From a virus, in IMG/VR virus record IMGVR_UViG_3300030390_000634, positions 1 through 42,062 of that record: a DNA stretch of 42,062 nucleotides. One strand, written 5' to 3'. The notes beneath the pieces are model-generated. The model worked only from the letters and a program-made list of their open reading frames with translations, ran no database searches and had not been told where the DNA came from. Both the position numbers and the translations under genes were made by a program. This document shows, one piece after another, positions 10,550 to 42,062 of the stretch (positions are counted from its first letter, which is position 1; each line of letters opens with the position of its first letter).

Positions 10550-12964
10550 ATGAAACTACAACAACACACAAACGTCAATGAAGTAATTGGCGTACAAAAA
10601 CAACACAAGTTTAAAATAACGGACGGATCTCAGGCTATCATTATGGATAGCCTGATTAATTTATACTCGGACCCTATTGGTTCGATTGTCCGTGAGATCA
10701 CTTCAAATTGTATAGATGCAAACCGCGAGCGGAACCTTAAGTTAGAGGGTAAGATTCCAATGGAAGCAGAAGATGATAAGTCTTTCTGGTCTAAGAAGCA
10801 AACGGTTTGCATTGAATACGTAGAGAAGAACACAATTCTAGGAATAGATGAGTGTATTATGTTCCATGATTATGGTTGCGGTCTTTCGCAAGATAGAGTT
10901 GCTAATGTATTTACTACATTCGGTGCTTCTACTAAGAGAGACAACAACTATGAGATTGGCGGCTTTGGCTTAGGTGCTAAATCACCTTTAGCTTATTCAG
11001 ATACTTTCTACGTGTCTAGTAGACACAATGGTACTGAAACATATTATATGATATATCGTAACAACGACAATGTCCCCCATATGGATCAAGTATACCAAGC
11101 AAGTACAGATCAACAAAACGGTAGCACCGTAATTGTTCCTATTAAAGATAGTTATGATAGAAGATCTTTTAAAGAGTCTATTGCAACTCAACTATGTTTC
11201 TTTGACAATCTTGTATTCAAGAATGTTGTAGAATCTATAGGGAAAGTAAATAACTATTATACTTCAGGTGATTCCTCTTACAAAGTTACTGAAGAAACTG
11301 ACGATTACATTATAACTAACGACGGTAGAGAACCTTTTCTACTTGTTGGTAAAGTAGTGTATCCACTTAACTGGAATATGTTAGATGATTTTAGTGAATC
11401 TGATTTTAGAGGTAGTGTTGGTATTAAATTTAATATCGGTGTTTTAGACTTAGTTCCTTCTCGTGAGGAGTTACGATATACATCTAAAACTATATCTCTT
11501 ATTCAAGATAAATTAAAATCTGTTTTAGGGCAATTTAAGCAACAAATTAACAAAAAGTACGAAAATATCACTGATTTTGGTGAATATTTAAGAGTTATTA
11601 GCGTTTTAGGGCAAGGACATAGTACTTGGAGAAGGATGACAAGTGATGACCCTAATGCAGTAAAATCAGATATTGCAGGAGTAGGTTATTATGATGTACC
11701 TTTTGTTCCATTTCCTAAACTAAGTTGCGATAAGAATACTAACGATACAGGGGCTTTTCATAAAGTGTTTGATGGCATTAGTTTTTATCATTGCAAGCTA
11801 GTTAGTAATAAAGGTGCTATAGGTGGAGAAACAATTTACAAAAGAGAGTGTAACTCTTGGTATGACTTGTTTTCAGCTTTAAGCGACAAAACTAATTTCT
11901 ATTATGTAGACAGTAACTTTAGTAAAAATAAAGATTACACTCTTATAAATAGTGTAGGAGAATTTGTAGCTTTTAAAGTTGATCCTGCTAAAATAGGAGA
12001 AAGGACTTTAGATACTAAACTTAATTTAAATGACCCTAGACCTTCTTATGAGAAAACTGCAACATTTAACACTGTAAGTAGACTGTTAGGTAAATCTTCA
12101 AGTATGATTAAATACTCAGATGTAGAAGAAACTGAACTAGACAGCGAACTTATGGGAGATGTAGTTGATAACAAGACTCGTCGTAAAGTAAACAAGCAAG
12201 TATTTGCTCGTAATGCTGAATTTAAAGCTGATGGTTATGAAACTAAAATTAAGTACACTAACCAAGAGTATAAAATTTCAGATTTGCAAGTAATGTTGCA
12301 CCCTGAAGAAGGAGATCCTAAACTTAAAGCTGTAGTTTATGCTGAAACAAAGGATCTTGATGAGCTTGAGAAAGTTGTCAAAGTTTTAGGTAGTAGTAGA
12401 GCTTTTTATAGTAACAACTACAATTATCTATACAGATTTGAGTCAGATTACAGAGTATTAAAAGTATCTAAAGATGTTGCAAAGCAATTTGCAAACCTTG
12501 ATGGATTTATAACAGCACATGAGTTTATGAAAGATTCTACACACTTGCAGAGATTTGCTACTGCGCAGTATATTGGTAAATATATAGAAAAAATTAGATT
12601 TTTAACTTATTTTGAACCTTATGACAAAGATTTAAATAGTAAATTTTATAGTCTAAATAACTTTTATAAACAGAATACCAACGGATGTTGGCGTTGTGAA
12701 GATGATATACAACCTGTTGTAGAAGAAATCATGAACCTAGATATTCCAGATACTGTTAGATATGACATGGAATTAGTAGATAAACTAGAAGAAGTGGTGG
12801 AGTATTCGCAAGGTTTAGAGCTTTTAAACTATGTAGACTTTAACTCAGATTCTAGGAAATCAATTGAAAATTTCTTATCTTTAAAAGGCAAAATGCCTGA
12901 CACTCAACAAATTAAATTAACATTAACAGCTAAAAATCAAAAAGATGAATTACTTAGTAGCTAA
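10550..12964 (+). CDS. rIIA-like protein with GHKL ATPase domain
   Basis: An 804-aa protein. The N-terminal GHKL (Hsp90/gyrase B/MutL-type) ATPase has the N-box REITSNCIDANRE (48-60), the G1 box DYGCGL (107-112) and the G2 box GGFGLGAKSP (137-146), with the Asn and Asp needed for Mg-ATP present. The rest is long and not recognised. T4 rIIA has the same GHKL N-terminus and a similar size (about 725 aa). The next gene is an rIIB-like protein overlapping by 20 nt, the T4 gene order, which secures the call. In T4 the pair protects against exclusion by the lambda Rex system; here it is probably anti-exclusion, membrane-associated, with targets unknown. Confidence 0.8.
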   Translation: MKLQQHTNVNEVIGVQKQHKFKITDGSQAIIMDSLINLYSDPIGSIVREITSNCIDANRERNLKLEGKIPMEAEDDKSFWSKKQTVCIEYVEKNTILGIDECIMFHDYGCGLSQDRVANVFTTFGASTKRDNNYEIGGFGLGAKSPLAYSDTFYVSSRHNGTETYYMIYRNNDNVPHMDQVYQASTDQQNGSTVIVPIKDSYDRRSFKESIATQLCFFDNLVFKNVVESIGKVNNYYTSGDSSYKVTEETDDYIITNDGREPFLLVGKVVYPLNWNMLDDFSESDFRGSVGIKFNIGVLDLVPSREELRYTSKTISLIQDKLKSVLGQFKQQINKKYENITDFGEYLRVISVLGQGHSTWRRMTSDDPNAVKSDIAGVGYYDVPFVPFPKLSCDKNTNDTGAFHKVFDGISFYHCKLVSNKGAIGGETIYKRECNSWYDLFSALSDKTNFYYVDSNFSKNKDYTLINSVGEFVAFKVDPAKIGERTLDTKLNLNDPRPSYEKTATFNTVSRLLGKSSSMIKYSDVEETELDSELMGDVVDNKTRRKVNKQVFARNAEFKADGYETKIKYTNQEYKISDLQVMLHPEEGDPKLKAVVYAETKDLDELEKVVKVLGSSRAFYSNNYNYLYRFESDYRVLKVSKDVAKQFANLDGFITAHEFMKDSTHLQRFATAQYIGKYIEKIRFLTYFEPYDKDLNSKFYSLNNFYKQNTNGCWRCEDDIQPVVEEIMNLDIPDTVRYDMELVDKLEEVVEYSQGLELLNYVDFNSDSRKSIENFLSLKGKMPDTQQIKLTLTAKNQKDELLSS

Positions 12965-13961
12965 AGTAACGCCAAACGACGTTACAGTAATTATTGATGG
13001 AAAGCACAAGAGAATCCGAAAGGATTCTCCTGATGCTGAACTAGTTATTGCTCTGGTAAAGCAATACAATTCTTGTAATATTCTAACTGAGAGAGTAGAT
13101 ATTATAACAAAGATAGAAGAACTTTGTGTACCAGCAAAGAAAATCCAATTTAAATCAGATGGAAGATTTGAGTTTGATGGGAATTCAGCTATGTATCTTA
13201 AAGGTACTAGCGACCCAATACCAGAATTTCTAGCTAAGAAATTGCTAGAATATATTGATAAAGGACTTGCAGTAGAGCCTTTAGTTAATTTCTGGAAACA
13301 CACGTTGCTTAACCCTGACAAAAGCGTTAGACAACAGTTGTTTGGCTTCTTAGAACACAATGGCCATCCAATAACTGATAAGGGTTATTTCTTAGCTTAC
13401 AAAGCAGTGAAAGTTGCTCGTAAGTATGATGCAGAAACAGGTGAAGAAATTGTAAGCGTTAGCTACGATGAAAACACAGGTGAGCGTATAGAAGAAACAC
13501 TTAATCAGTCTATGACTTTTAAACCATATCACTCAGGTGCACATGGTATGACTGTTAAAGTTGGTGAAGCTATCACAATGCCAAGAGAAGAATGTGACTC
13601 TGATCCTGATAGAACTTGCTCTGCAGGTTTACATGTAGGTTCTATGGATTATGTACATGACTTTGGTTATGGTGGAGGTGTAATACTAGAGGTGCTAGTA
13701 AGCCCTCGTAATGTTGTAGCAGTTCCTACTGACTATAACAATACTAAGATGAGATGCTGTGAGTATTATCCAATTGCTATTACAAATGGCGAGAATGCTA
13801 ATATTTACTTAGAATCTGATTACTCTGCATTTGATATGGCTACTATGGTAGACGATATTGCACAGTACGAAGAGTCTAAAGGCGTTTTAATTAAACAAAT
13901 AGAAGATGAGCTAGCAGAGCGTAGTGCTGTTGCTGATTCATTATTACTAGATCACATATAA
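12945..13961 (+). CDS. rIIB-like protein
   Basis: A 338-aa protein following the rIIA-like gene with a 20-nt overlap. Recognisable parts are a DVTVIIDGKHKRI segment near the N-terminus, LEHNGHPITDKGYFLAYKAVK in the middle and the CSAGLHVGSMDY/NVVAVPTDYNNTKMRC region. The last of these matches the conserved C-terminal part of T4 rIIB-like proteins found in many phages. T4 rIIB is about 310 aa. It is the last gene of the plus-strand block, 69 nt before a strong terminator. Its role is tied to rIIA; the biochemical function is not established in any phage. Confidence 0.8.
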   Translation: MNYLVAKVTPNDVTVIIDGKHKRIRKDSPDAELVIALVKQYNSCNILTERVDIITKIEELCVPAKKIQFKSDGRFEFDGNSAMYLKGTSDPIPEFLAKKLLEYIDKGLAVEPLVNFWKHTLLNPDKSVRQQLFGFLEHNGHPITDKGYFLAYKAVKVARKYDAETGEEIVSVSYDENTGERIEETLNQSMTFKPYHSGAHGMTVKVGEAITMPREECDSDPDRTCSAGLHVGSMDYVHDFGYGGGVILEVLVSPRNVVAVPTDYNNTKMRCCEYYPIAITNGENANIYLESDYSAFDMATMVDDIAQYEESKGVLIKQIEDELAERSAVADSLLLDHI

Positions 13962-14535: not shown

Positions 14536-14671
14536 AATCTATTATTATAAAAATTTGTATTAATCCTAAAAAAAATTGTACTTCATAGTAAGGTGCATGC
14601 TCTTCTGGTTGGAAGTGACGTACACCAAATACTATTCCTTTTGCCCATGTTAATCCGAATCCTAGTTTCAT
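14507..14671 (-). CDS. Small hydrophobic protein of 54 residues, possibly membrane-bound
   Basis: Starts MKLGFGLTWAKG and ends YGNIDDNTH. The segment VQFFLGLIQIFIIID (about residues 31-45) is hydrophobic enough for one membrane helix. Its ATG shares a base with the stop of the 1163-aa gene (TAATG), and its 3' end overlaps the next gene by 29 nt, so it neatly fills the gap in a very tight operon and is likely translated. Small hydrophobic proteins at the end of a late operon may be holin-like or membrane adaptors; no holin signature (dual start, charged tail) is evident. Confidence 0.65.
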   Translation of the reverse strand: MKLGFGLTWAKGIVFGVRHFQPEEHAPYYEVQFFLGLIQIFIIIDYGNIDDNTH

Positions 14672-17600
14672 TATGCTAAAGGTTTAAGTAACCATCCCAT
14701 AGTATCTTCTACATCTCTATTTAGTTGGTAGAATATAGGAATTACGTCGTTAATTTCTTTTGTAAGTTTTAATTGTCCTTTTCTTTTACCAGAAGCATAT
14801 CTTTCCATTTCTCCTCCTGCTATTACATTAATACCGTCTTCAAAGAATCTGTCCATTATTTCCATGCTATTTTGCACTAAACTTATAGATGCTGCAGGAG
14901 ATTTTAAAATACGTAATGCTTCTCGTGGATTTGCAAACCCCACTAATTCAGAGTAAAGTCTTCTAGTGTAAAAAGAAGCCATCATCATTGCAAATTTTTG
15001 TTTTTCATCAGGCTCATCTTGAGCTGCTCCGTACAGTAAAGAAGATGTAATTAATGCAAGAACTATGGTAGCTAACTCAGTAGTCATTTCTTTCATGTTA
15101 GACTTCTCTCTTAAAGAAAGTTGATGCCATCTATCAGAAACAAGTTCCATACTAAACTTTCTAGTATCTTTCTTAATTCCTGCTATAAATCTTATCATAG
15201 TTGTGTAAGTACCTTCGTCGAGATCTTGTATTTCTCTATTGTAATACACATCTTCTTCAGTTAAATACTCTTTAGGTACTAGTGAAGTTCCTACACCTCT
15301 GTATCTTCTTCTTATACCAGGTTCTAACCATTTTCTAAGCATCATAACAAGTTTACCTGTAGCTGCTCTTTGAGCCATTGCTTGGTTGTTCTTATCGTAG
15401 TTACCGTTTAATCTTCTATTAATATGGTTTAAATATCTTTTAACTACAAACTCTGTTTGCTGTAAATTCTTTTTATCTAACCAATAAGTTTGCCCGCTAC
15501 TAAGCTCTATACCTTGCGCTATCTTTTTAATAACAAGTCTTCTTCCTGACTTATCTTTTTCATAAGCCTCATCAAGAGACATTGCATCTTTTTTATCTTC
15601 TACAACGTTTCCTTCATTATCTATAAACTGGCCTTTAGCATTTTTAACTTTTATACCGTTTAGAAATGCATACATTAAAGTGTTTTGTATGTAATTCTCA
15701 GCCATACTTGTTAAAAAATGTAATGTGCTTTTGTCTGCTAGCTGACTAATTTTAGTTGTGCCTGCAAACTTTTTACTTACTGCACTCCAATCTTGCGTAG
15801 AGTCATATATTTCTCCAAGTAAATTTGTTCTAGAGCTTGGAGTTAATGCTCCAATATCTGCTATTAAATTTATTACATCTGAATCATACTTAGCCTCAGC
15901 TTTAGCAACATCTCTTAAGTTAAAATCTAATCCCCCTACACCTTTTATAAAGTTCATAGTTTTACCTTGGAATAAAGATGCTCCAGCAGAAAAGTAGTTA
16001 CCTATCAAAAATAAATCTCCTGTAAAGCCCATAATAGATTGTGCAATTTTATTTACTGTTGCACTACCTACAGACTTTATACCATAGATTCTATCTTCTA
16101 ATAAACTTTGTATAGCTTTATACGCATTAGATTCTGTACCACTAATAACTGCAGGTACATTTTTACTAAGGCCTAACTTTTTAGCCACTTTAGAAGTACC
16201 TCCAAATGTTTTTTGCACTGTTTTTCTAGTTGCCACTGCTTCTTTAAAAACTTCTAGCTCTGGAAGTACACTATACTTTTCTTTAAAGTTTAAAGATCCC
16301 CAATAATCCATTAAGTACATACTTACTAAATCATACGATTGATCTCCTTTCTCTGCAAGCTCTTTTCTTTTCTTAGGATCATTAAAATATCTAGGTATAG
16401 TCCTAGCTATTTTTTGGTTTTCATCTAGATTTACATAGCTTACACGTTGGATACTTTCTTTTATTTTGCTCCAACCTTCTGCTTCTGTTTCATCAGGATT
16501 TTCGTTATGTAGATCTACATCAGATGCTCTCACCCTAAATGTATCTCCTAACGTTTTAGATACTGTGTCTGCCACACCATTCTCAAAAGTACGCTCTAAC
16601 ACACTTTTTTCTATAGCAGGTAATCTTAATCCTCCAGGTCTACCTAAGTAATTCTTATCTCTCTTCTCTGCAAGGTCCACTAAAAACCAATACATATCGT
16701 ATCTAGCTTCTCCCTTGTTGTTTTTATCTTTAAAATACTCGTAAGCAGGATCAATCCATTTAGATTTTGGTTTATTAACTTGCCCGTTTATAGAGTTTGC
16801 ATTTACCCAAGTTTTTAAAGCTGCAGTAGCCGCTCTAGCTTGATCACTAGTTTCACCATATTCTTCTATGGCTATCATTTTCTTTTCGTAAAATTCTTTA
16901 CGAGTTTTCCAATACTCTGCTTTAATATTACCAATTAAAAACCCTGTAAGATTGCCTTTACTGTCTTTTGAAAGAAGGTCTGCATACAGCTTAGTCATGT
17001 CCTTAGTGTCTCTTCCTTCTTTGTAACGTTCAAACATATCATAAGCTTCTTTAGTCTTATTTATAGTTTCTCGCATTACAATGTAATCAGCTTTATCAAG
17101 CACTTCTACAGCTATTTGTATTATATCGTCTGTAATATCTCTAGGGTTACCAAAATAAGCATCCATCCAACTAATATCGTCAGACACAGAAAGCATGTTT
17201 CTTTTAATAAAATCTTTTTCTGCTTGCTGTAACTCTGCTTTATTTAACTCTACTAATTTATCTACGTGCGCTGCTTTTTCTTGCGCAAACTCTACACTTG
17301 TTTTTCCAGGATTATTCTTTTTCCAAGTAGAGTATTCTCCAAAACTTCTAGCATAATTATCTTTAGCTATTCTAGTCTGCTTACCTTCTACCTGCCCCCA
17401 TTTTTCACCAAGAACATCAATAAATCTTTCTGATAATTTTTGCTTAAGAGTTTGTATTCTATCCGCTATCTTAGAATAGTTAATTTTACTTTTGTCAAAT
17501 TTAGATTTTAACTTAGGGTTTTTGTTTATTATATAAACTACATCCTCAATAGCAGCAAAATATCTAAGTCGTTTTAAGTATTCGTAGTGTACGTTTACAT

Positions 17601-18162
17601 CTTTAGATCTTAGCTTTAAAGCTTTTTCTATACTATCTATATTTGCATTAACTTCTTTAACGTATTCTACTAAAGCCTCTTCTGTTTTATATGTCTGCAG
17701 TTTAGTTAGCAGTCCTTGCACTTTATTTTTAAAATCTGCTTTTTGTTTTTTCTGTCTCTGCATAGGAGACCCTTTTTGTGTTCTAGTTTTTGCATAATCC
17801 CCCACCTCTTTAGCCACTCTTTTTAACAAAGCTTCTGTTTGCTGTATTAAGTCTTCTCTTACGCTTGTAGGTGTAGTAGGTGTGTATTTATCTATAAGTT
17901 TCATGTATGTTGCAGGCAAATCTTTTTCTGCTTTCATACCTTTCTTCTTAAAATATTCCATCACTGATTCTGCAGTAGGGAGACCGTCTTTCATGTCTTT
18001 CCTATCTTTTGCAACTGCAGGATTTGTAAAGTCACCAAAATATCTTTTAAATGCAGGAGTGTATACATGCAAATAAGCTGCTTCACCTATACGATCTCCT
18101 TCTTCTTTGTCAAATTGTTTAGTAAACTCTCTTACTAAGTTATTTTTTAATTCACACGACAT
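14671..18162 (-). CDS. Large protein downstream of the RNA polymerase, likely virion cargo
   Basis: A 1163-aa protein, Lys/Glu-rich and mostly helical, with coiled-coil-like stretches in the first 330 residues. A hydrophobic segment, ELATIVLALITSSLLYGAAQ (about 1026-1045), could insert in a membrane. The C-terminus is amphipathic (FYTRRLYSELVGFANPREAL). The gene starts one nucleotide after the RNA polymerase stop and sits in the block where crAss-like phages encode large proteins packed in the virion and ejected into the cell. It is probably such a protein, perhaps helping genome or polymerase entry. No enzymatic motif is recognised, and a structural role in the capsid is the alternative. Confidence 0.55.
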   Translation of the reverse strand: MSCELKNNLVREFTKQFDKEEGDRIGEAAYLHVYTPAFKRYFGDFTNPAVAKDRKDMKDGLPTAESVMEYFKKKGMKAEKDLPATYMKLIDKYTPTTPTSVREDLIQQTEALLKRVAKEVGDYAKTRTQKGSPMQRQKKQKADFKNKVQGLLTKLQTYKTEEALVEYVKEVNANIDSIEKALKLRSKDVNVHYEYLKRLRYFAAIEDVVYIINKNPKLKSKFDKSKINYSKIADRIQTLKQKLSERFIDVLGEKWGQVEGKQTRIAKDNYARSFGEYSTWKKNNPGKTSVEFAQEKAAHVDKLVELNKAELQQAEKDFIKRNMLSVSDDISWMDAYFGNPRDITDDIIQIAVEVLDKADYIVMRETINKTKEAYDMFERYKEGRDTKDMTKLYADLLSKDSKGNLTGFLIGNIKAEYWKTRKEFYEKKMIAIEEYGETSDQARAATAALKTWVNANSINGQVNKPKSKWIDPAYEYFKDKNNKGEARYDMYWFLVDLAEKRDKNYLGRPGGLRLPAIEKSVLERTFENGVADTVSKTLGDTFRVRASDVDLHNENPDETEAEGWSKIKESIQRVSYVNLDENQKIARTIPRYFNDPKKRKELAEKGDQSYDLVSMYLMDYWGSLNFKEKYSVLPELEVFKEAVATRKTVQKTFGGTSKVAKKLGLSKNVPAVISGTESNAYKAIQSLLEDRIYGIKSVGSATVNKIAQSIMGFTGDLFLIGNYFSAGASLFQGKTMNFIKGVGGLDFNLRDVAKAEAKYDSDVINLIADIGALTPSSRTNLLGEIYDSTQDWSAVSKKFAGTTKISQLADKSTLHFLTSMAENYIQNTLMYAFLNGIKVKNAKGQFIDNEGNVVEDKKDAMSLDEAYEKDKSGRRLVIKKIAQGIELSSGQTYWLDKKNLQQTEFVVKRYLNHINRRLNGNYDKNNQAMAQRAATGKLVMMLRKWLEPGIRRRYRGVGTSLVPKEYLTEEDVYYNREIQDLDEGTYTTMIRFIAGIKKDTRKFSMELVSDRWHQLSLREKSNMKEMTTELATIVLALITSSLLYGAAQDEPDEKQKFAMMMASFYTRRLYSELVGFANPREALRILKSPAASISLVQNSMEIMDRFFEDGINVIAGGEMERYASGKRKGQLKLTKEINDVIPIFYQLNRDVEDTMGWLLKPLA

Positions 18163-18163
18163 A

Positions 18164-21100
18164 TTATATACATTCTGGTTTAGTAAATTCTTGAATTAAA
18201 TCATTGTTAGCTTCAAACTCGTAAGCTGCATTAACTATTTTCATAGTTTCTCTACTAGCAACTACTTGGTTTTGCTCAAGCATACTTTTAGGTTCTTCTT
18301 TATCAAATCTATATTCATTTATTCTAAATCCTCCGTCCATATCTAAACCTAAAGGAGATATAGGATAAAATATAGGATTTAAATACTGTTCTCCACCTTT
18401 ATTAACTACTTCGTATCCTCCATTTTTAAATAACAGTATTTCTCCTGTAGGATTAGCTGGGGTTATACCCATATTTAATGTAACAAATCTTGTAGTTATA
18501 TGTTTTTTAGCTTCCCTACCTAAAAGTCTAAATCCATCTCTATATCCTTTCTTTTTACTTAAAGGAGATACTGAATCACTTTTACGTAATCTAGGAGCAT
18601 ACTTAGTATTTTTATACTCATGTCTTATTACTTGATCTATACCTGCATGCAGTATATCTCCTGAAGTTAGCTTAAGTTCTTGCACAGATTCGTTAAAATT
18701 ATCTTCTATATTCCACATAATAGGTATAAGACTATGGAACGCTTTTAACCCTCCTCTAAATCCTGACGTAATATACGAATACTTTACTAATTTTTGATAA
18801 AAAGCTTTTTCTGATGCATTATCAGAGTTTAAACCGTCTTCCCATGCTTGAATTGCTAGTTTTTTACTATCTGTAGGTAAGAATTTAGCATTGCTCATAA
18901 ATATCATACTAGGCATTTTATTAATACCTTCAGCATTTCTATAAATTTTAGACCTAAGAATCCCTTTATCTTTACCTAGCAATATATTTTCTGGATATTT
19001 TTCAGACATAATCACAAAATCTTGCACTAAAGATCTATTAGTATTAGAGTCAAACAACAATTCTTCTGCGCTACCTAGTTCTGGAGTACCTACAAAGTGA
19101 TTGCTATACATATAAGAATATAGTCTGTCTTCCATACTTCTTCTTAATCTATAGTCTTGAGAATTTTTATTATTTGTAGCTTCTAGCATAGCTAACTCAT
19201 TATCTTCTAGTCTACCTGATAAAAACTTACTATTAAATAAATCTAAAAACAGTTCTGGTCCATTTTCAAAGTATTTACCAAGAACAGTTCCTTCAGCAAA
19301 CTTTTCGTTAAAGTTACCTATTTCTACATACTCATCACTAGTTGCTATCTCATCTCTAATTTGTACAGCCATTCTTGCTTCTATAGTATCTTGGCCTACG
19401 CCTTGTGTGTGTACTTTAGATGCTAAATTCTGTGCAAATATTTTATTTCCTTTATCATATATTAAATCAAAATATTCAATAACAGCTAGCTGGTAGCTCA
19501 TATCTTCACCAGTTATACCTTTTTCTAAGTTTTCTATTGTTAAAACTTTTTGTATATTACTTATGTCATCTGAGATCATAGAAGCAAAATTAATTGCTTC
19601 TTTAGAAGAATATTTTCCAGCTATACTTTCAATTTCTTTAGACTTGTAAAATTGCCTATCTAATATAGGGCTTTTGTTAATCATAGATTGTCTTACAAAC
19701 TCTGCTACTGCAGGTTGCTTTAAAAATCTATTAATCCATTTGGTAGGTACTTGAGCCCTAACTAACAATGTAGCTATGTTTAAAGTTTCTTTGTTTACAT
19801 TAAGTGCTGCTATATAAGGGTCTTTTTCAATATCTACAAATGCGTTCATATACCCTGATTGTATTTCAGATATTAGCAACCCATCTTTTCTAGTAGTTTC
19901 GTGTAAACTAGTGGCAATTGTACCGTCTGGAAGTTTTACAGTGGCTCCCATTCCAATATAAGATATATTTAATTTACCTATTTGAGACACTACATTATCT
20001 ATAATTGCGTTAGCGATAGCACCTACACCTACAGCTCCTAAAGAGAATCTTCTTTTAACTTCTTGTTGGAATTTAGGGCTAAATAATTTTAAAGCATCAA
20101 ACACATCTTCTTCTCCTGCTAACTTTGCAATAGTATCTGCATCTGTTTTTAAGTCTTCTGTATCTATAGATTTTATAATTCTAGGATACTCTTCTACAGA
20201 ATTAAACAATTCTTTATATAAAAGAATTCTTTTGTTTTCTAAAGATTGTTTGCTAACCCCATTTGGATCAATTAATTCTAGCTTACCTGTTTCTTTACTG
20301 TATTTTACATGCGGTAATAGCATAAATAATTTATCAATATCAAAGTCACTACCCGTTTTAGCGGTGATGTCTTCATAAACTACTACAGTATCCCCAATCT
20401 CAGGAGGCAGTATACCTACTATTTGTAAAGCATCAATAGACGCTAAAGATTGTGTTGGAATACGATACCCTATAACAGATAAAACATCTTTTCCTATAGC
20501 AGCTTTAAGCTCTTCATTACTCATAGTTTCCCAACCAGGTATGCTTTCTATAACCTTATAAGGTAATAGTATTTCTGCTAACTCTAGTTTACTATTTACT
20601 ACTCTTGGTCCTGACAAAGGAGTGGTACCATCTCGTAACCATCTAATCTTAGACTCAGCTTCTTTACTTAAATTTAAACTTGACTCAGGATTTTCTAAAA
20701 ACCCAAAAGAAGATATTTGTACTACTTGCTGTCCTTTAGCTTTGTAAGTTACTGTAGATTTAGTTAGAGTATTTGCAAGCTTATTCATTATCTTTCTTCT
20801 AGATTGGAATATAGCATCAAACTCTAAACCTTTTTCTAGACCTGCTATTAAAGCATCATCTCTAAACTGATCATCTTCAAACAGTCTAATTAATTCTTTT
20901 CTAAATACATCTTCATCTATAACGTATTCGCCAAGCTCCTCACTTATACCAAACTTATTAAAGAAATCTTGTCTACCTAAATCTGATATACTGTTTTCTA
21001 AATTTTGTACTTCTTGCAACCATTCTGTAGCTTTTCTTCCTCCAATATTAATTTTATCATTAATATCTCCAAGCATTAGCATTTTAGTTTGAGAACCAAA

Positions 21101-24100
21101 TGTCCCTTCTTTAACACCTTTAGCTTTAATTTCTTGTTGCTTTCCGTATAGAGAATGTGATTTTTCTACAGGCTCTAAAATAAGTTCATTAGCTTCTAGT
21201 ACATTACCAGAATCATCATCTATTTTAGTTCTTTCTCCTGCACCAATTTTTATTGCAGACTCTACCGAAACAGCCATTCCAATTTCTTGCCCATTGTTTT
21301 CTCTAGCCCATTCTTGCTCAAGTTTCACCATGTTATCATACAGATCTTTTAACTGAACAGTATTTACTAACCCTGGCCACATTATCACTTCTGCAGTTTT
21401 TTCTCTATAAGGTACATTTAAATTGTTTTTTACCTCTGTACCTCTAGATGTACTTTTTTGAGGCATAAGCATTACAACATCTTTGATGTTTAGCTCACCA
21501 GTCATTAATCTATCAAAAGCTGCTTCTACTTTAGCATTCCACTCTCCTAACCCTTTCATACGTTGTTTACGTAATGTAGGTGTTATCCAAGTAGTACCAT
21601 CGGCTAAATCTATACCTTTTTTATATCCTTCTATATTACCAAGGTATTCAGAGGGTTTAAAAACATCATAAGCCGTTGCTTGCAAATAAAGAGGGTTTAC
21701 TTCGTAAAGATTACTGTTTTTGTTTTTGTATACACGTAGAGGGGCAACTCCTGTACTATATAAATTAGATCTTTTTGGGAAATCTTCTATACTTTTATAA
21801 AATGCTACATTACCTACAAACATTTTTGTAGATTCTACATTAGCAATTATACCGTTGTACACGTAATCAGCTATTGCTCTTGAAACTTTTAACTGGTCAG
21901 GAACATCCTTATACATATCGCTATCTTTTAACATCTTAGCGTCTAAGTGCTTGTTTGTATAAATTTCTAATCCTGTATTCTTTTCAGTTATTTTACCTAT
22001 TATTCCATATTCTTCAGCAGTTCCTAATTGCTCTAGCACTCTTTTTTCAAAACTATCTTTAATTAGTTTTTCTATTCTAGGGTCATTTAAATCCATCTTA
22101 GATAAAGGTAAAGGCTTACCTTCATTAGTGTACATTTTTATACCGTTTTGAGATAGCCATTCAGACCCAAAAGTAAGTTCAGGAAAAAGATAATGCTTAA
22201 ATGCATTACCTGCAGGAGCACCGTTAGAATCACGTTCGTTATCGTTTTTATCGTAGTGGTAAAATAGATTTTGTCTATTTTTAGGCAGTTTGTTTTCTCC
22301 AAACACTTGGTTATACGCAACCTCCATAGTAGACAACTCATCTTTTATGTAGTTTTTAAACGTATTTAAAACTTCTTTAGAAGTGTAATCAAAAGTTATT
22401 TTCCCATTTTCTGAAAACAAGTTTAAGCCTGACTTATATTGAGGAGTACCAACAATATTGTAAAGAGTACGAGCGTTACCAGGAGTCATTAAAAACAAAT
22501 GCCCTTTCATGCTCCTATTAATTCTATCAGCTAATTGATCAGGTTCACTTAAATTAAAATATTTAATACCTTGATAACTGTTTTCATCTTTCATCTGCAT
22601 AAACACTACTTTGTCAAACAGATCTCTATTTTTCTTATTTTCTAATAAGTAATTAACCCATTTAGAATTCTTTGTAAATGTTTGCCCTTGTAATTGTTGC
22701 AAATAGCTTAAATCTCCTTGTTTAAACTGAGATATAACTTGAGATAAATAACTAATATCAGAGAATGGCCAATAAGTATCTCCTTTAGGCCCTAAAACAC
22801 TATTTTCATGGAATCCTAGTTCAAATTTAGCTTGAGACTTTGCTAAAACTAATAATCCTTTTTCGTCTTTGTATAAATTTACAACTTCACCTAACTCATC
22901 TTCTATAGGGCGTTGTCCCCTTTCTGCGCTTTCTTTTTTACCGTATCTATTTACTAAGCTAGAAAGACCTTGTTTACCAAATATGAACTCTAGATGCCCA
23001 AAGGTATCTAAAACTCTGTCAGCCATTGTTTCTCCTTCTTCTACATCTATTATATGGTATTGTAAAGCGTCAGTAGATATATCAATACCCACTGATTCTA
23101 AAATTTTAGCTAATTGCCCTATATATTGTGTAGGATATGCATTTGGATTCCCTTTAGCTGCTTTTCTGTATTCTCTTAATAAATTATTAAAAGATTTAGA
23201 TGCTGCAGTAGCAATAGTGTCTTTAAGCAGGTGTTTACCTGTTTTACTGTAACTAGTAAGTTTTGCCTTAAATCCTTCTTGCCACTTTTCTCTAACCACT
23301 TCTTCTTTAGCCTGCACATCAGCTTTACCAATTTTAAAAAGTCTATTACCTTCTTCTCCAGAGTATATAGTTTGAGAGTATGGTTGAGCTTCTAAAGAAA
23401 AGGCTTGCATAAACCTTGTTTTTCTTTGTTCAGATGTAGGGGATTTATTAGTTCCTACCTCTAGCTTCTGTATTAACTCTTTTATAAAAGGATGAAATTT
23501 TACTAAAGTTCGTAACTTGGCTATGTATGCTTCGTACACGTCTTCAGTGTTCTTATCAGATACTATACCTGTAAGTTCTTGTGTAAGTAGATTGTATACT
23601 TGTGTAAAAGGTACATATTTAGGTGCTCCTAGAGTTTTATCAGCAATTGACTTGCCTTCTCTAGTAACCTCTCTTAATCCCTTTAAAAGTAATTTAGTAC
23701 TTAACGCTGCATTCTCTTTAGGAGAAAACAATTCTTTACCTTTTAGATTTAATGTTTGTGTTTTATCTTGCTCTTCTTGCTCTATTTCTTTACTGTATAT
23801 TCCGTCAGCTTTTAATCTAGTTTTAAGATTTTCTAGTAACTTAGAATCTTTACTAATAGGTCTTCCTGGAATAGAGTTATTTAATAAGTCTTCTAAAATT
23901 ATTTTTACAATAGAATATCTATGGTAATCTTGCTTTTCAAAAACTTTCTCAAGCTGCATCCACATATTCTTTAAGAGCTTTTCTTCTACACCGCTTATAT
24001 CTTCTACGCCATCTATGTTTGTAATTAACATTCCGTAGGTAAAATCAGCTATATCATCTACCTGTGAAGGAGTTAACCCTGAGATTCTATTTAAACCAAA

Positions 24101-24403
24101 AGGATATTTATCTAACCCTCTCTTTTTGTCTACACTTTTAGCCCACCAAGTTTCTCCTTCATTATTTTGATAAAACTCTCCTTTAATAAGAGATGGTTCT
24201 CCTACGTTGTTAACGTATCTAGAATCTTTAAACCATGATTTAAACTCTGGTAACTCTGTTACAGCGTAAAGACTTTTAGCTGTTTCAACTTTATTATTAC
24301 TTAAATTTAATAATTGAGGAAATAACGTAGATTCACTACCTTCGTTTGTTAAAACTCTCTCAATTGTTTTTCCGTCTCCTTTGTATACTATATTACAAGC
24401 CAT
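18164..24403 (-). CDS. Virion-packaged RNA polymerase, single polypeptide, crAss-like
   Basis: A 2079-aa DNA-dependent RNA polymerase. The metal-binding DFDID motif (residues 1353-1357; DNA 20333-20347), in context TGSDFDIDKLFML, follows YRIPTQ (1313-1318) by 39 residues. In cellular beta-prime the same order is RxPT then NADFDGD. This is the signature of the double-psi beta-barrel polymerases; crAss-like phages have a giant one-chain form (phi14:2 gp66, about 2180 aa). A GSQTK segment at 1103-1107 may belong to the beta-like barrel, but this is not certain. The enzyme is carried in the virion and transcribes early genes after ejection. The gene lies between two other large cargo-type genes with 1-nt gaps. 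No stop codons interrupt it, so the code is standard. Confidence 0.9.
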   Translation of the reverse strand: MACNIVYKGDGKTIERVLTNEGSESTLFPQLLNLSNNKVETAKSLYAVTELPEFKSWFKDSRYVNNVGEPSLIKGEFYQNNEGETWWAKSVDKKRGLDKYPFGLNRISGLTPSQVDDIADFTYGMLITNIDGVEDISGVEEKLLKNMWMQLEKVFEKQDYHRYSIVKIILEDLLNNSIPGRPISKDSKLLENLKTRLKADGIYSKEIEQEEQDKTQTLNLKGKELFSPKENAALSTKLLLKGLREVTREGKSIADKTLGAPKYVPFTQVYNLLTQELTGIVSDKNTEDVYEAYIAKLRTLVKFHPFIKELIQKLEVGTNKSPTSEQRKTRFMQAFSLEAQPYSQTIYSGEEGNRLFKIGKADVQAKEEVVREKWQEGFKAKLTSYSKTGKHLLKDTIATAASKSFNNLLREYRKAAKGNPNAYPTQYIGQLAKILESVGIDISTDALQYHIIDVEEGETMADRVLDTFGHLEFIFGKQGLSSLVNRYGKKESAERGQRPIEDELGEVVNLYKDEKGLLVLAKSQAKFELGFHENSVLGPKGDTYWPFSDISYLSQVISQFKQGDLSYLQQLQGQTFTKNSKWVNYLLENKKNRDLFDKVVFMQMKDENSYQGIKYFNLSEPDQLADRINRSMKGHLFLMTPGNARTLYNIVGTPQYKSGLNLFSENGKITFDYTSKEVLNTFKNYIKDELSTMEVAYNQVFGENKLPKNRQNLFYHYDKNDNERDSNGAPAGNAFKHYLFPELTFGSEWLSQNGIKMYTNEGKPLPLSKMDLNDPRIEKLIKDSFEKRVLEQLGTAEEYGIIGKITEKNTGLEIYTNKHLDAKMLKDSDMYKDVPDQLKVSRAIADYVYNGIIANVESTKMFVGNVAFYKSIEDFPKRSNLYSTGVAPLRVYKNKNSNLYEVNPLYLQATAYDVFKPSEYLGNIEGYKKGIDLADGTTWITPTLRKQRMKGLGEWNAKVEAAFDRLMTGELNIKDVVMLMPQKSTSRGTEVKNNLNVPYREKTAEVIMWPGLVNTVQLKDLYDNMVKLEQEWARENNGQEIGMAVSVESAIKIGAGERTKIDDDSGNVLEANELILEPVEKSHSLYGKQQEIKAKGVKEGTFGSQTKMLMLGDINDKINIGGRKATEWLQEVQNLENSISDLGRQDFFNKFGISEELGEYVIDEDVFRKELIRLFEDDQFRDDALIAGLEKGLEFDAIFQSRRKIMNKLANTLTKSTVTYKAKGQQVVQISSFGFLENPESSLNLSKEAESKIRWLRDGTTPLSGPRVVNSKLELAEILLPYKVIESIPGWETMSNEELKAAIGKDVLSVIGYRIPTQSLASIDALQIVGILPPEIGDTVVVYEDITAKTGSDFDIDKLFMLLPHVKYSKETGKLELIDPNGVSKQSLENKRILLYKELFNSVEEYPRIIKSIDTEDLKTDADTIAKLAGEEDVFDALKLFSPKFQQEVKRRFSLGAVGVGAIANAIIDNVVSQIGKLNISYIGMGATVKLPDGTIATSLHETTRKDGLLISEIQSGYMNAFVDIEKDPYIAALNVNKETLNIATLLVRAQVPTKWINRFLKQPAVAEFVRQSMINKSPILDRQFYKSKEIESIAGKYSSKEAINFASMISDDISNIQKVLTIENLEKGITGEDMSYQLAVIEYFDLIYDKGNKIFAQNLASKVHTQGVGQDTIEARMAVQIRDEIATSDEYVEIGNFNEKFAEGTVLGKYFENGPELFLDLFNSKFLSGRLEDNELAMLEATNNKNSQDYRLRRSMEDRLYSYMYSNHFVGTPELGSAEELLFDSNTNRSLVQDFVIMSEKYPENILLGKDKGILRSKIYRNAEGINKMPSMIFMSNAKFLPTDSKKLAIQAWEDGLNSDNASEKAFYQKLVKYSYITSGFRGGLKAFHSLIPIMWNIEDNFNESVQELKLTSGDILHAGIDQVIRHEYKNTKYAPRLRKSDSVSPLSKKKGYRDGFRLLGREAKKHITTRFVTLNMGITPANPTGEILLFKNGGYEVVNKGGEQYLNPIFYPISPLGLDMDGGFRINEYRFDKEEPKSMLEQNQVVASRETMKIVNAAYEFEANNDLIQEFTKPECI

Positions 24404-24404
24404 A

Positions 24405-27400
24405 TTATTCGCAATCTAAGTTTTGTTTAGTAATATCTAGGTTGTTATCTAGATCCATACCTTTTGTTATATCTAACATCCAGTTAGTATCTTCTCCCCA
24501 GTCTACAGTATTATCTGAAGGTGCTGTACCATCTTCCTGCTCCAAATTTAGTTCAAGTTTTCCTTGTTCACTAGTTTCAATTAACAATTTTTCTAATTCT
24601 TTGCCTGTAATAGGAGTTGCTTTATTTTTTAAAATATTTGTTACGTGTGAAGATACAGGTACTATTGCGCCTAACCCAGCATCTATTAGTTCTTTATCTT
24701 GACTTATATCTCTAACTTCCCCTGCTTCAAATGCAGCAAGAGCCTCCATAGCTTCTGCTTGCATATCAGCAGGTAAATCAGCCATTGTATAACTCTGTAA
24801 TCCTTCTGAAGATGATGGAGAAGTAGGCTTATTTGGCTTAGTAGATTCTTTTTTAGCTACGGGTGCTTCAGGTTTTACCATTGGTGAAGGAGCTGCAAGA
24901 GGTGCTCTTTCTTCTTTTTTAGCGCCAATAGGTGCAAATCTAATAGTAGGCTGCACAAAAGGAGATCGAGTGCTATTATTAGTGAATGCATTAGTAAATA
25001 CAAGGTTATGTTTAGCTAAGAAAGTGTTGTAAGCATTTTGTGTTTTACTATTCATATACTTAGCGTTAACGTGCGTACGTTTATTAGCCATTAAGTATTC
25101 AATCACTTCTTCTTTACTATCATTCCATTCAGCTGCATTATAAACTTTATCTCCTAGTTTCAGTTTACCTGAACTATAATGGAATGTAGGGGCTTTACTG
25201 TTTACTGTCTTTTTACCTTTGTATATTAATAAATCTAATACTTGGTTGTACGTAGGGTTTTCGGACTCTAGCACAGAATCTAATACTCCTGCTAAATCTC
25301 TGTATATTTCTGAGTTCTTAGGATCTTTTAACCTACTAAACTCTGATATTTCAGAATTAAAATTAGGTAACTTTTGCCTAAGCATACCATTTACAAGCTG
25401 CCATATAAGAGTTGATAATTCTTTATTTAGTTCGCTTGTAAACACTCTTAATGGAAACATTTCTCCATTATTCATAGGTATTTTTATGTACACTGCACCA
25501 TCATTATTAGATACAACTTTACCGTTTTCGTCTAGCTTAGGTTTTACAGATAAAAATTTAAAATCTTTATCTACTTCTCCAAACTCATTAACGTAGTTAC
25601 CATTACGTGCAAATACAAACGTAGGTGTTACAGGATTACCTTTTCTACCTACATTTAAGAATGTTAAAAGATTATTTCTATCGTTTCTATTTACATTATT
25701 TAAATGGCCACCAGTCATCTCTGTTACAAATGATTTAGATTCTATACCATTTAAATAATTACTATATACAGTGCTTCGTAATTCTGACAACAATTGTTTA
25801 GCTCCTTCTTGCTCGTCTAGTGCAATGTGCTCATTAATATAATCAGATATGTGTACATAAGTTTGAAATTGACTTACACCTGTGCTAGAATTTGCATTAG
25901 GCACCTGTATTAGCGCTTTTATAGGTAGCTTACCTAACTCTTGAGGAGATAATGGTTTTTTATTTTTTACTTTACTTGCAATTGCTTGCATAGACTCTAC
26001 TTTTGTAAGGTTAGGGTCTTTTAAGTCAATTTTAAATATTATATCTGCACCTTTTAATGTACCATTCTCTTTTAATTTACCAAGCTCTGTAGTAGCGTCC
26101 CCTTCAAGTAAATTAGTTAATCTTTTATTAAATGCACTGTCTTCTCCTGCTTGGAAAGGATGGTTTAAAGATTTCCATGCTAAAGATAATATAGTTTCTA
26201 AAGGTTGTATTACATCTATAATGTCAGAGTTTTTTCTGTTAGCATCTTCATTAGAAATGTCTACATTATCATTGTCAGGAACTTCCATATCTAGATCGCT
26301 AGCATTTACAATGCTTTGCCTAGTTTCAGCAGAGTTATCATCTACTGTAGTTTCGGTTGCTGTTACAATTGTAGCAACATCACTACTAGATTCGTTAGTT
26401 GTGTTTTCATAGAAAGGACTTTCTTCTGGAGTAGACTCCTCGTTTGAGCTTATTTCTGCTCCTTTTTCTATTTCTTCAGGCTTTGGTTTTGTTGTCGCCT
26501 GTTCGTTTGTTTTGTTTGGAGCTGTTTGGTCAGTTCCAATGCTTTCTGCACTAGCAGGCTCGCCTGTTGATTCCGCGGCGTCTTGTTTAACTTCCTCTTC
26601 AGTTCTAGAGGCAGCATCGACATCAGTTCTTTTTCCGAAAATTTCTTCATTGTATTCTTCTTTAAATTTGTCAATTTTTTCTCTAATATAATTGTCAACA
26701 TGAGCATCTCTAGCTTTAATTACTTGAGCTATTTTAGATGGGCTTCTAAGTTTATTTAGACTTTCATTGTATACTATACTTACAGGTATACCTGCATTAC
26801 GTTCTGAGGCAGTGGTGTATTTACCATCTACTTCCATTGGTTGACCTATCGTCTGTTCGATATAATATTTCTTTCTTTCAAACTCAAATATCTGATCACC
26901 TTTAGTAAAATCAAACAGTTCTATTTCTGCTTGCTTTCTAATTACGGCCATCATAGATATTAGTCTAGAAACTTCTTGTACAATAAATGGATTTACAAAT
27001 ACAACTTTATTTCCTTCAGAGTCAAATAATGTAACTCTTCTTGGTACAAATCCAGGCTCGTCTTGTCTAAATAAGAATGGATCTATAGCAGACAGTTCGT
27101 TAATAAACAGATTATTATAATACTTACCACCTATTTCAAATGTTCTACCATCAGTTACTAAACTAATAAATGTTTGGTCTTCTAATGCTTGGACATTTAA
27201 ATCTTGTAGCATCATGTTATCTGTATTTTGTGCCAGCACGTATGTTTTACCAGACTGGGACTCAAATACAGTTTCTCCTGTTTGAGGATCTTTAAATAAG
27301 ATACCTTCTTCTCCTTGGAATATCGACCTTACTGAGGCGTTAGGATAAGAAAGTAATAATTTTATAGGAGTTTCTGTTGTTGTTTTAACGTCTACTTTAG

Positions 27401-29939
27401 GATCTGCTAATCCTTCTAATGCTCTTTTTTGCTCTTCTAATAAGCTAACCATCTCTTGTTTAGCAGGAAGGCCTATAGACTTAAGCATTCTATCAAACAA
27501 AGTATTTCTACTTTGCTTAAGAGATTTTTGTACATCTTCTTTGTCTTCTTCTGTAATTGTCATAGCTTCTGTAACTTCCTCAGTTAATGTAGGAGTTTCT
27601 TGTGCTATAGCATTTTCTTTATCTTCTATTAGTGCTTCATCTTCTTCAGCTAAAACTTTCTTTTTAACTTGTTCTGCTTCAGTTTCTGAATTAGTTTTAA
27701 CTTTTTCTTCGTTATTTAATACTTTTTTTATTTTATTTATAATAGTAGGCTCTAATTCTCCGTCTATAATTTTATTTATTTCTCCAATGTACGCTTGTCT
27801 TAAAGCTTCTACTTTTCCTATGTCTTCAAACGCATCTGGTAGTGAGTTTAAACTTATAGGGTCTACGTTAACATCGTTATTAGCGTTTTCCATCATCTCA
27901 GCTAAAGCTGTTTTTAGTTCAACGCTATCAACTTTTAATCCTTTTAGTGTTTCGTAATTAACATTACCATTAGTTAACTTAGAAATTTCTCTAGCTAATT
28001 TTTCTCTTCTAGAGTCAAGATTGTCTGCCATATACCCATAGCGCTTTAGTAACACTCCGTATGCAAACTTTTGTTTCTCATCTAGATTAACTGCAGACAT
28101 AATAAATTTATCTATCTTAGGTTTTTGGTCTTCGATAAATTCAATTTTATTTCTTATATCTTTTACTTGTTCAGCAACATCTTTTACCTCTATATCTTTA
28201 GGGATACCCATAGCTTCTTTAAACTCTTCATTAGAAAGTTCTGCTATAGAATCTACAAAAGATTTAAAGTCATCTATTCTTTCAGCTTCTATGTACGCCT
28301 CTATAAGAGAGTATAAAGCCCCTGCTTCTTCATTTTTATAACTGAATACATCATTATCTTTAAGAGCAGTGTCCATTCTGTCTTGAGATTTTTGTATTTG
28401 AGCGTGTGCTTGTAGTAATTTTTGTAATGTTCCGTTTGGATCTAGATTATTTAATTTAGCAGTTAAATCTTTAGTTCTTTCGTAAGTTTTTATCCAATCT
28501 TTTCTAGATGTAGAACCATCTTCTTTAAGTGCAGACCCTGCTTCACCTAGTTTACCAAGTAATGCTCCTAAAAATATAGCTTGTTGTCCTTCTTTAGTTT
28601 GAGGGGATTTTATGTACCCATCAGCTAGAGTAGACATTATACCCATACCACCTTCAATATAATCTGCAGTAGTACTCCAAGGGTTTGCAGAGTATACATC
28701 TTTAAAATAATCTTCTACTGCTACATTTATAGAAGCTTGAGACCATTCTTCAAACGCCTCTACTGACGGTCGTTTAAGCCAAGCCACCGATTGACTTGCT
28801 TTTTGAAATTGTTTAGGCAACTCTTTAAAATTAAACTTTAAAGCACCTTTTTTAGCAGTATCTTTGCTGATTAGACCTGTTAGATACTTTTTAGAGGTAG
28901 GATTCCACCCTCTAGAGAACGCTTTACCAAATTGTAATACATTACTACCTCCTACAATTAGAGCATTTAATCCATAAGCAATGTTAGCACCAGTATCAGA
29001 CAAGTTATCTATCTCTTCGTCTGTCATGTCTGCATACCTAGGATCTCCTGTAGCTCTAAGCTGTTGCATTATTTCTGTAGCTCTACGTTTAGATTCTCTA
29101 GCTTCAATACCTGCTTCTCCTAAAGCAGAAAATAAACCTGCTCCATATGTATTTGCATTCAATGCATTGGTATTAATACTACCAATAATGTCTCTAGTTT
29201 TATTTACTTGTGCAGCGCTAGATCCTAGTTTAGTTTTTCTAAAATTATTTACTACATTTCTCCAAGCTCTTACTTTTCCCATACCTAAACTACGGTATGT
29301 TGATCCTACAATATTTGATGCTCCTGCAACATATCCACTAGCAATAGCACCTGCTAAGAATCCCATACCTTGTAACCCTTGGTCAGACCAAAAATTAGAA
29401 GTACCTAAAGATTGAGCAAAGCCCATATCTCTCTCTGCTTGTGTATAATAATTAGGGTATTCTTTACGCATATACTCATTAAACTCATCAAAAGACTGAG
29501 TAATTGCGTTATCATATACTCTAGAGAATTCTCCTGTTATAGCTCCTGCTGCAACACCGTAAGTCATGTCAACAAAAGGTTCTAAAAAAGTAGTTGCTGC
29601 AGTACCAACCATCTTAACTAAACCATTGTTCCATTTAATTCCTGTACCTTGTAATCTCCCTGCAGTACCTTCTAAATCAATTCCTGGTCTAATATTAACA
29701 CCAACTTCTCTATACAACTCTCTTTGTCTACTTTCTTCTGCATCAAATTCAGATAAATCTGCAGTCATAGACACAGGAGTAAATCCTAAAACTTCTACAC
29801 CTGATTCTCCTTCAGGTGCAAGATTAAATTTAGGAGTTTTTATAGGAGCAGAACTTAAATTATTATTTAAAGGAGTTTGATTTATCTCTACTCCTGACTG
29901 TCCTTCGGGGGCTAATGTTATACCTTTTAATTTAGTCAT
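24405..29939 (-). CDS. Giant putative virion cargo (ejected) protein, 1844 residues
   Basis: The gene before the RNA polymerase in the operon; start shares a base with the upstream stop (TAATG). The N-terminus has a duplicated peptide, LAPEGQSGVEI (9-19) and LAPEGESGVEV (40-50). Then come Gly/Ala-rich hydrophobic segments near residues 95-125 and 185-212 that could enter a membrane, and long helical parts. A very acidic, Thr/Ser-rich disordered linker (about 1115-1250) follows; the C-terminus is acidic with repeated LDITK. No catalytic motif is seen. Place, size and layout match the cargo proteins that crAss-like phages carry in the capsid and tail and deliver with the polymerase. It may form a channel or chaperone the polymerase; this is inference. 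Confidence 0.6.
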   Translation of the reverse strand: MTKLKGITLAPEGQSGVEINQTPLNNNLSSAPIKTPKFNLAPEGESGVEVLGFTPVSMTADLSEFDAEESRQRELYREVGVNIRPGIDLEGTAGRLQGTGIKWNNGLVKMVGTAATTFLEPFVDMTYGVAAGAITGEFSRVYDNAITQSFDEFNEYMRKEYPNYYTQAERDMGFAQSLGTSNFWSDQGLQGMGFLAGAIASGYVAGASNIVGSTYRSLGMGKVRAWRNVVNNFRKTKLGSSAAQVNKTRDIIGSINTNALNANTYGAGLFSALGEAGIEARESKRRATEIMQQLRATGDPRYADMTDEEIDNLSDTGANIAYGLNALIVGGSNVLQFGKAFSRGWNPTSKKYLTGLISKDTAKKGALKFNFKELPKQFQKASQSVAWLKRPSVEAFEEWSQASINVAVEDYFKDVYSANPWSTTADYIEGGMGIMSTLADGYIKSPQTKEGQQAIFLGALLGKLGEAGSALKEDGSTSRKDWIKTYERTKDLTAKLNNLDPNGTLQKLLQAHAQIQKSQDRMDTALKDNDVFSYKNEEAGALYSLIEAYIEAERIDDFKSFVDSIAELSNEEFKEAMGIPKDIEVKDVAEQVKDIRNKIEFIEDQKPKIDKFIMSAVNLDEKQKFAYGVLLKRYGYMADNLDSRREKLAREISKLTNGNVNYETLKGLKVDSVELKTALAEMMENANNDVNVDPISLNSLPDAFEDIGKVEALRQAYIGEINKIIDGELEPTIINKIKKVLNNEEKVKTNSETEAEQVKKKVLAEEDEALIEDKENAIAQETPTLTEEVTEAMTITEEDKEDVQKSLKQSRNTLFDRMLKSIGLPAKQEMVSLLEEQKRALEGLADPKVDVKTTTETPIKLLLSYPNASVRSIFQGEEGILFKDPQTGETVFESQSGKTYVLAQNTDNMMLQDLNVQALEDQTFISLVTDGRTFEIGGKYYNNLFINELSAIDPFLFRQDEPGFVPRRVTLFDSEGNKVVFVNPFIVQEVSRLISMMAVIRKQAEIELFDFTKGDQIFEFERKKYYIEQTIGQPMEVDGKYTTASERNAGIPVSIVYNESLNKLRSPSKIAQVIKARDAHVDNYIREKIDKFKEEYNEEIFGKRTDVDAASRTEEEVKQDAAESTGEPASAESIGTDQTAPNKTNEQATTKPKPEEIEKGAEISSNEESTPEESPFYENTTNESSSDVATIVTATETTVDDNSAETRQSIVNASDLDMEVPDNDNVDISNEDANRKNSDIIDVIQPLETILSLAWKSLNHPFQAGEDSAFNKRLTNLLEGDATTELGKLKENGTLKGADIIFKIDLKDPNLTKVESMQAIASKVKNKKPLSPQELGKLPIKALIQVPNANSSTGVSQFQTYVHISDYINEHIALDEQEGAKQLLSELRSTVYSNYLNGIESKSFVTEMTGGHLNNVNRNDRNNLLTFLNVGRKGNPVTPTFVFARNGNYVNEFGEVDKDFKFLSVKPKLDENGKVVSNNDGAVYIKIPMNNGEMFPLRVFTSELNKELSTLIWQLVNGMLRQKLPNFNSEISEFSRLKDPKNSEIYRDLAGVLDSVLESENPTYNQVLDLLIYKGKKTVNSKAPTFHYSSGKLKLGDKVYNAAEWNDSKEEVIEYLMANKRTHVNAKYMNSKTQNAYNTFLAKHNLVFTNAFTNNSTRSPFVQPTIRFAPIGAKKEERAPLAAPSPMVKPEAPVAKKESTKPNKPTSPSSSEGLQSYTMADLPADMQAEAMEALAAFEAGEVRDISQDKELIDAGLGAIVPVSSHVTNILKNKATPITGKELEKLLIETSEQGKLELNLEQEDGTAPSDNTVDWGEDTNWMLDITKGMDLDNNLDITKQNLDCE
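29790..29915 (-). repeat. Duplicated 11-residue peptide motif in the cargo protein N-terminus
   Basis: Two copies of LAPEG[QE]SGVE[IV] encoded at 29883-29915 and 29790-29822, 31 residues apart, nine of eleven residues identical. They sit in an otherwise low-conservation, Pro/Asn-rich N-terminal region. Possible meanings are a packaging signal, a docking peptide or a protease site. Confidence 0.7.
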
Positions 29940-41365: not shown

Positions 41366-42062
41366 TTATCTGTCTGCTATAATTATTACTGCTCCGTATA
41401 TTACTTGTCCTGTTGATGTAGTCATAATTTTTATAGCTACGTAATTAGTTTCTGCAGAGTTGTACGGTGTTTTTAAATTTATAACAGATCCTGGAAACCC
41501 AGTACCTATTTCAGATGATACTCCTGAAGATAAATCTACTCCATTTAAGTAGGTTGTTACTTTACTACTAGCATACACAGCATACCCTGTTACTTTTTTA
41601 CCTTCTGGTATAGTTACTGCTGCATATATTTCTTGAGAAGAGTGTGCTACTCTAACCCCTAACTTACCTCTAACATCATCTTCAATAGTTGTACGTTCGT
41701 AGTTGACATCATCGTTACCCATAAACTGTGTAGGTAGTATCTTGATTAGGTTTCCATACACACCACCTGCTACTCCATCAGCACCTCTTGCTCCTGCGCT
41801 ACCTGCAGGCCCCCTAGCACCTGTACTACCATTACTACCATTAGAACCATCTGCGCCTGCATCACCAGTGTCTCCTTTAGGACCTTGAGAGCCAACTACA
41901 TCAGCAACAACGTGCCTTCTTAGTTCGTCTACATCTTCTTGTACTAAACCTATTTGATATATTATTCCTGCAAACGCAGGCTCTTCATCAGGATTAGTTG
42001 CAATTTTAGTAAGGTGACCAGCATCAAACTCATCTTTAAGCTTTGCTTTATCATCACCACCT
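41366..42062 (-). CDS. Collagen-like tail/fibre protein, 5' end outside the window
   Basis: The reading frame is open from its stop at 41366 to the window edge (231 codons visible). An N-terminal-side part rich in charged residues (DDKAKLKDEF, VQEDVDELRRHV) looks coiled-coil-like. Then fifteen Gly-X-Y triplets (about 41759-41893) form a collagen-like stalk, and a C-terminal beta-rich head follows, ending VIIIADR. This is the usual layout of trimeric phage fibre or head-fibre proteins. A GTG at 41761 could be taken for a start and would give a 131-aa protein, but it lies inside the triplet repeat and should be rejected. Its place upstream of the tail genes suits a receptor-binding or decoration fibre. 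Confidence 0.8.
   Translation of the reverse strand, partial: GGDDKAKLKDEFDAGHLTKIATNPDEEPAFAGIIYQIGLVQEDVDELRRHVVADVVGSQGPKGDTGDAGADGSNGSNGSTGARGPAGSAGARGADGVAGGVYGNLIKILPTQFMGNDDVNYERTTIEDDVRGKLGVRVAHSSQEIYAAVTIPEGKKVTGYAVYASSKVTTYLNGVDLSSGVSSEIGTGFPGSVINLKTPYNSAETNYVAIKIMTTSTGQVIYGAVIIIADR
41759..41893 (-). repeat. Collagen-like Gly-X-Y triplet repeat
   Basis: Fifteen consecutive Gly-X-Y triplets (GSQ GPK GDT GDA GAD, then ten more), with Pro, Lys, Asp, Ala and Asn in the X and Y positions. Such repeats form trimeric stalks in phage fibres. The DNA is unlike its surroundings in being Gly-codon-rich; repeat-number changes by slippage are likely between relatives. Confidence 0.9.

Follow-up and report, generated by a model that had tools for sequence, protein, structure and literature searches.

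A predicted giant single-chain RNA polymerase of the phi14:2 type in a crAss-like phage genome

The locus and its gene neighborhood

In the 42,062-nt window, by which I mean the whole stretch of phage DNA that was analysed, the minus strand of positions 18164-24403 carries an open reading frame (ORF) that starts with ATG, has no internal stops and encodes 2079 amino acids (Table 1). The plus-strand translation of the same interval shows stops throughout, and the plus-strand ORFs found there are therefore taken as chance. The RNA polymerase (RNAP) ORF lies 1 base from minus-strand ORFs on both sides (24405-29939 and 14671-18162), and these gaps are consistent with a single transcription unit. 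No tRNA or Rfam elements were found within the window, nor any long repeats pointing to a special element.

Table 1. Features of the polymerase locus, with positions in the window
Feature	Position	Strand	Evidence or remark
RIIA homologue, 804 aa, end of early block	10550-12964	+	phrog_612, E 8.9e-67
RIIB homologue, 338 aa, end of early block	12945-13961	+	phrog_609, E 1.4e-44
RNAP-associated virion protein (predicted), 1163 aa, homologue of phi14:2 g065	14671-18162	-	BLASTP E 1e-93, 26% over 1153 columns
Single-chain two-barrel RNA polymerase (predicted), 2079 aa	18164-24403	-	Orthologue of phi14:2 gp66
Catalytic half, residues 820-1760, both barrels by match to 6VR4	19124-21946	-	AlphaFold2 model, Foldseek
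DFDIDK metal-binding motif (predicted), residues 1353-1358	20330-20347	-	D1353, D1355, D1357 and K1358 invariant
RIPT motif, residues 1314-1317	20453-20464	-	R and P invariant across 63 relatives
N-terminal part, residues 1-860, fold as in 6VR4	21824-24403	-	AlphaFold2 model, Foldseek
Homologue of phi14:2 g067 virion protein, 1844 aa, upstream of RNAP	24405-29939	-	E 8e-10; phrog_32390
Putative cargo/structural protein, 799 aa, phi14:2 g068 position	29939-32338	-	Position; weak BLASTP match, E 0.001
Crassvirus muzzle protein, homologue of phi14:2 g071	36324-40421	-	PF25731, E 6.8e-173
Homologue of phi14:2 g072 (annotated tail tubular protein)	40421-41341	-	tblastn E 3.3e-14
Collagen-like repeat protein at window edge, resembles tail fibre families	41366-42061	-	Side observation

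The gene order of phage phi14:2, g072-g071-...-g068-g067-g066-g065 followed by oppositely oriented genes, is reproduced in the window, where a convergent plus-strand block beyond the g065 homologue encodes helicases, a primase, a Sak4-like annealing protein, an exonuclease, RusA and the RIIA/RIIB homologues. The alignment of the g065 homologue with its phi14:2 counterpart begins at residue 340 of the latter, and about 280 N-terminal residues are lacking from the homologue. A related 91-kb contig (L003) carries homologues of the phi14:2 TerL, portal, major head, IHF-like, tail tubular and muzzle proteins. Because of the muzzle protein, the order and homology of g065 to g072, and TerL, portal and major head protein in this 91-kb relative, the window comes, on these grounds, from a crAss-like phage belonging to the Crassvirales. 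An earlier note on this DNA had reached the same assignment from motif spacing in the polymerase; the assignment stands, but on the strength of homology, as the spacing is roughly shared by other two-barrel RNAPs and would not by itself have identified a crAss-like phage. Separately, ARAGORN reported a selenocysteine-type tRNA with anticodon tca in the 91-kb relative (L129:15369-15464, minus strand), which may be opal-suppressor-like or a false call.

Homology to phi14:2 gp66 and predicted fold

One copy each of RIPT (residues 1314-1317) and DFDID (residues 1353-1357) is present in the 2079-residue protein, with 39 residues from the arginine to the first aspartate, and this pair, already picked out in the earlier note, which leaves the strand of the gene unstated, holds up both in the intact ORF and against chance (among 20,000 shuffles of the protein, DFDxD appeared in 322 and RxP[T/N] placed 30-45 residues upstream of DFDxD in 0). 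When Pfam and PHROGs were searched with the polymerase no family model recognised it, and a polymerase without a family match might be suspected of being an unrelated giant protein whose motif pair resembles the polymerase elements by chance; yet the shuffles, together with the full-length homology and the fold match to PDB entry 6VR4 described below, refute this suspicion, and I regard its probability as negligible.

A phmmer search against all PDB chains returned a sole match, even at E values up to 10, and this was 6VR4, the phi14:2 DNA-dependent RNA polymerase (E 1.3e-79), with residues 23-1375 and 1385-1697 of the window protein aligned to residues 29-1399 and 1487-1792, respectively. A profile of 63 members matched the same entry at E 6.3e-290. 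Global alignment with gp66 (6VR4; NC_021806 g066) gave 27.8% identity over 1878 aligned residues and was collinear over the full length, with similar termini (MAC at the start, TKPECI/TKQECK at the end), and the two also share the DFDIDK motif, the 39-residue spacing, the predicted fold and the gene neighborhood. A tblastn search found 110 phage records; among the matches listed, most were crAss-like or uncultured gut phages and the best E-value, 3e-67, belonged to phi14:2. The window polymerase is thus, as judged by sequence comparison, a full-length homologue of gp66, the virion RNA polymerase of Cellulophaga phage phi14:2. There are differences, however: gp66 carries RIPN in place of RIPT, and an insertion of about 85 residues after its DFDID motif (around 1400-1487) is absent from the window protein. 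The length of gp66 is 2180 residues, in agreement with the figure given in the earlier note, which makes the window enzyme about 100 residues shorter and, at 27.8% identity, the "related but different enzyme" that had been proposed.

Structure prediction points the same way. An AlphaFold2 model of residues 820-1760, based on an alignment of 63 catalytic halves taken from IMG/VR and GTDB loci, reached pLDDT 89.1 and pTM 0.87, and a Foldseek search of the PDB with it placed 6VR4 first (E 1.5e-43, TM 0.83 by query length, 1037 columns). Residues 1-860, modelled separately (pLDDT 80.8), had 6VR4 as their sole Foldseek match (E 3.4e-30, TM 0.66). The predicted fold is that of gp66, with two double-psi barrels in one chain, the barrels being assigned through the 6VR4 match; the three aspartates are expected to cluster at a single metal site because of the TM of 0.83 to 6VR4. 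The comparison with gp66 suggested in the earlier note came out in favor of its reading, 6VR4 being the top match by both sequence search and structure prediction, and the proposed identity as a giant single-chain RNAP finds its support in that homology and that model. In the mechanism I favor, the DFDID aspartates of barrel A would bind the catalytic Mg2+ and the site would be completed by invariant lysines of barrel B, likely K1002 and K1052 in view of their position and invariance.

The second-best PDB match to the catalytic-half model was QDE-1 (E 4.4e-4), which like other eukaryotic RNAi RNA polymerases is a single chain with two barrels, but which differs in being a cellular RNA-silencing enzyme at 10% identity and TM 0.25. 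That 6VR4 ranks first and QDE-1 second fits published accounts which place the phi14:2 RNAP close to RNAi polymerases (PMC7886860, PMC10770324). Below QDE-1, the same search gave cellular and viral multisubunit RNAPs at insignificant E, with cellular beta-prime-type similarity weak at E 0.07 or worse. The bacterial beta-prime subunit does share RxPT followed by DFDxD, and in E. coli K-12 RpoC, read from the genome, RAPT at 425 and DFDGD at 460 lie 35 residues apart, so that the "almost beta-prime" spacing of the earlier note holds to within 4 residues; but the spacing is 35 and not 39, the cellular motif reads NADFDGD where the window has GSDFDID, and the cellular barrels sit on two chains. 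The window polymerase has neither the Pfam sequence match (no Pfam family matched it at E 0.05) nor the two-chain architecture by which a cellular beta-prime subunit is recognised.

Conservation and diversity among relatives

Scanning viral sequences with the full protein or just its N-terminus yielded only 2 full-length relatives, the rest being weak or spurious loci, and an alignment of the motif region was needed. Across 63 diverse members the invariant residues are R878, D935, K983, K1002, K1052, Q1105, G1224, R1314, P1316, L1332, G1351, D1353, D1355, D1357, K1358 and D1524. Among 109 motif pairs from relatives, 106 have an arginine-to-aspartate spacing of 39, and as the loci were retrieved by patterns for one motif or the other, the search favored no particular spacing. 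Of the three that deviate, one (L105) has 38 and the remaining two are unrelated pairs. The RNAPs of Steigviridae and Suoliviridae crAss-like phages (Kehishuvirus, cr111_1, cr1_1) belong to the same family and share this spacing with RIPT/RVPT and DFDVD/DLDVD motifs, although identity is about 22-25% over part of the protein, and cr1_1 and many others differ from the window in having the RNAP as the C-terminal half of a larger protein, about 4,000-4,900 residues long.

Against its 68%-identical relative in L003, the window RNAP gives dN 0.24 and dS 1.33 (near saturation), and purifying selection on the polymerase is, by this estimate, strong. These data bear on whether the protein could be a structural cargo protein that has kept the polymerase fold and lost the activity, an idea that gains something from the large sequence divergence from gp66 and from polymerase activity being a prediction, but that sits poorly with catalytic residues that are all intact and invariant in 63 relatives and with strong purifying selection, and which I consider extremely unlikely. 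In a tree of 86 RNAPs, made by a quick method with SH-aLRT support only, the polymerase of the window and those of L002, L003, L019 and L025 form a separate sub-clade (support 100) nested in a 41-member clade that holds phi14:2 (support 100).

In five other loci the RNAP frames are split into short pieces around DFDID (345-742 aa in L009, L010 and L106; two pieces each in L052 and L059), a pattern that recoded stops, introns or frameshifts, as known from some crAss-like groups, could produce. Matches from the genome scan also occurred in metagenome-assembled genomes (MAGs) labelled Bacillota, Neisseriaceae, Rickettsiales and others, and these labels were rejected as host evidence, as binning of phage contigs is unreliable.

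In many relatives a longer protein, of about 3,400-5,800 residues, has the RNAP as its C-terminal part, and several of these fused ORFs show homology to the gp67-like neighbor in their N-terminal part (L003 gp67 against L067, L101, L058, L070 and others, E 1e-40 to 1e-23), a comparison resting on L003 and phi14:2 gp67 as queries. The two genes are thus separate in some crAss-like phages, as in the window, and one ORF in others (L005, L020, L022, L035, L067 and L101 are listed for this variation). Scored on the RNAP tree, 40 fused and 38 split tips require at least 12 state changes, a count that may exceed the true number of events because frameshifts from assembly, as well as recoded stops, can look like splits. 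Protein boundaries in the RNAP block have been described as variable (Yutin et al., 2021; PMC7886860), and the RNAP and its upstream neighbor appear to have been fused or split repeatedly. A possible interpretation, which I offer tentatively and would not yet call probable, is that the gp66-like and gp67-like proteins together make up, each as one half, a single virion machine for transcription and injection in which the covalent link is dispensable, fission and fusion having occurred many times, with the window showing the split form.

Discussion

I conclude with high confidence that this crAss-like phage encodes a giant single-chain RNAP of the phi14:2 type, probably carried in the virion and starting transcription after entry. 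What supports this reading is the homology to 6VR4 and the collinearity, the AlphaFold2/Foldseek fold, the invariant catalytic residues, the synteny and crassvirus hallmarks, the tree and the dN/dS; what counts against it is that identity to gp66 is only 28% and that the gp66 insertion of about 85 residues is missing. The enzyme of phi14:2 is said, in work by Drobysheva from 2021, to adopt a cleft-blocking, self-inhibited state. According to its annotation, gp66 was detected in phi14:2 virions by mass spectrometry, and passages in PMC7886860 and PMC10136315 describe it as having been shown to be the early-gene RNAP, packaged and translocated with the DNA. For phi-crAss001, virions were found to contain the three cargo proteins associated with the RNAP, and their extrusion is believed to take place in a partly unfolded state (PMC10172136).

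A two-barrel RNAP could instead be made after infection and never packaged, like the non-virion gp64 of P23-45, a phage that has both kinds of enzyme (PMC10770324), and motifs and fold alone cannot discriminate between them. The gene, however, belongs to the minus-strand block of structural and cargo genes, where g065- and g067-like genes flank it, and the same placement is seen in phi14:2 and other crAss-like phages with products found in virions, making non-virion synthesis very unlikely here. For the virion enzyme of the phi14:2 type, orthology and synteny with phi14:2 make the following chain the best explanation: the polymerase would, as in phi14:2, be self-inhibited before packaging, enter the virion together with cargo proteins resembling g065, g067 and g068, be ejected with the DNA into a host that is probably a member of the Bacteroidota, and there transcribe the early plus-strand replication genes.

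That Crassvirales encode this enzyme is reportedly already known from Drobysheva's 2021 work. Such an RNAP block is present in all crAss-like phages except the Epsilon group (Yutin et al., 2021; PMC7886860). The window polymerase extends a described enzyme family by one new, divergent member and does not represent a new kind, and it leaves the picture of crAss-like transcription unchanged, since enzyme class, packaging and structure are already published. What it adds is a divergent sub-clade to the best-characterised crAss-like RNAP lineage, together with a residue-level invariance map drawn from more than 80 relatives that can be used for mutagenesis of R1314, P1316, the three aspartates, K1358, K1002, K1052, Q1105 and D1524.
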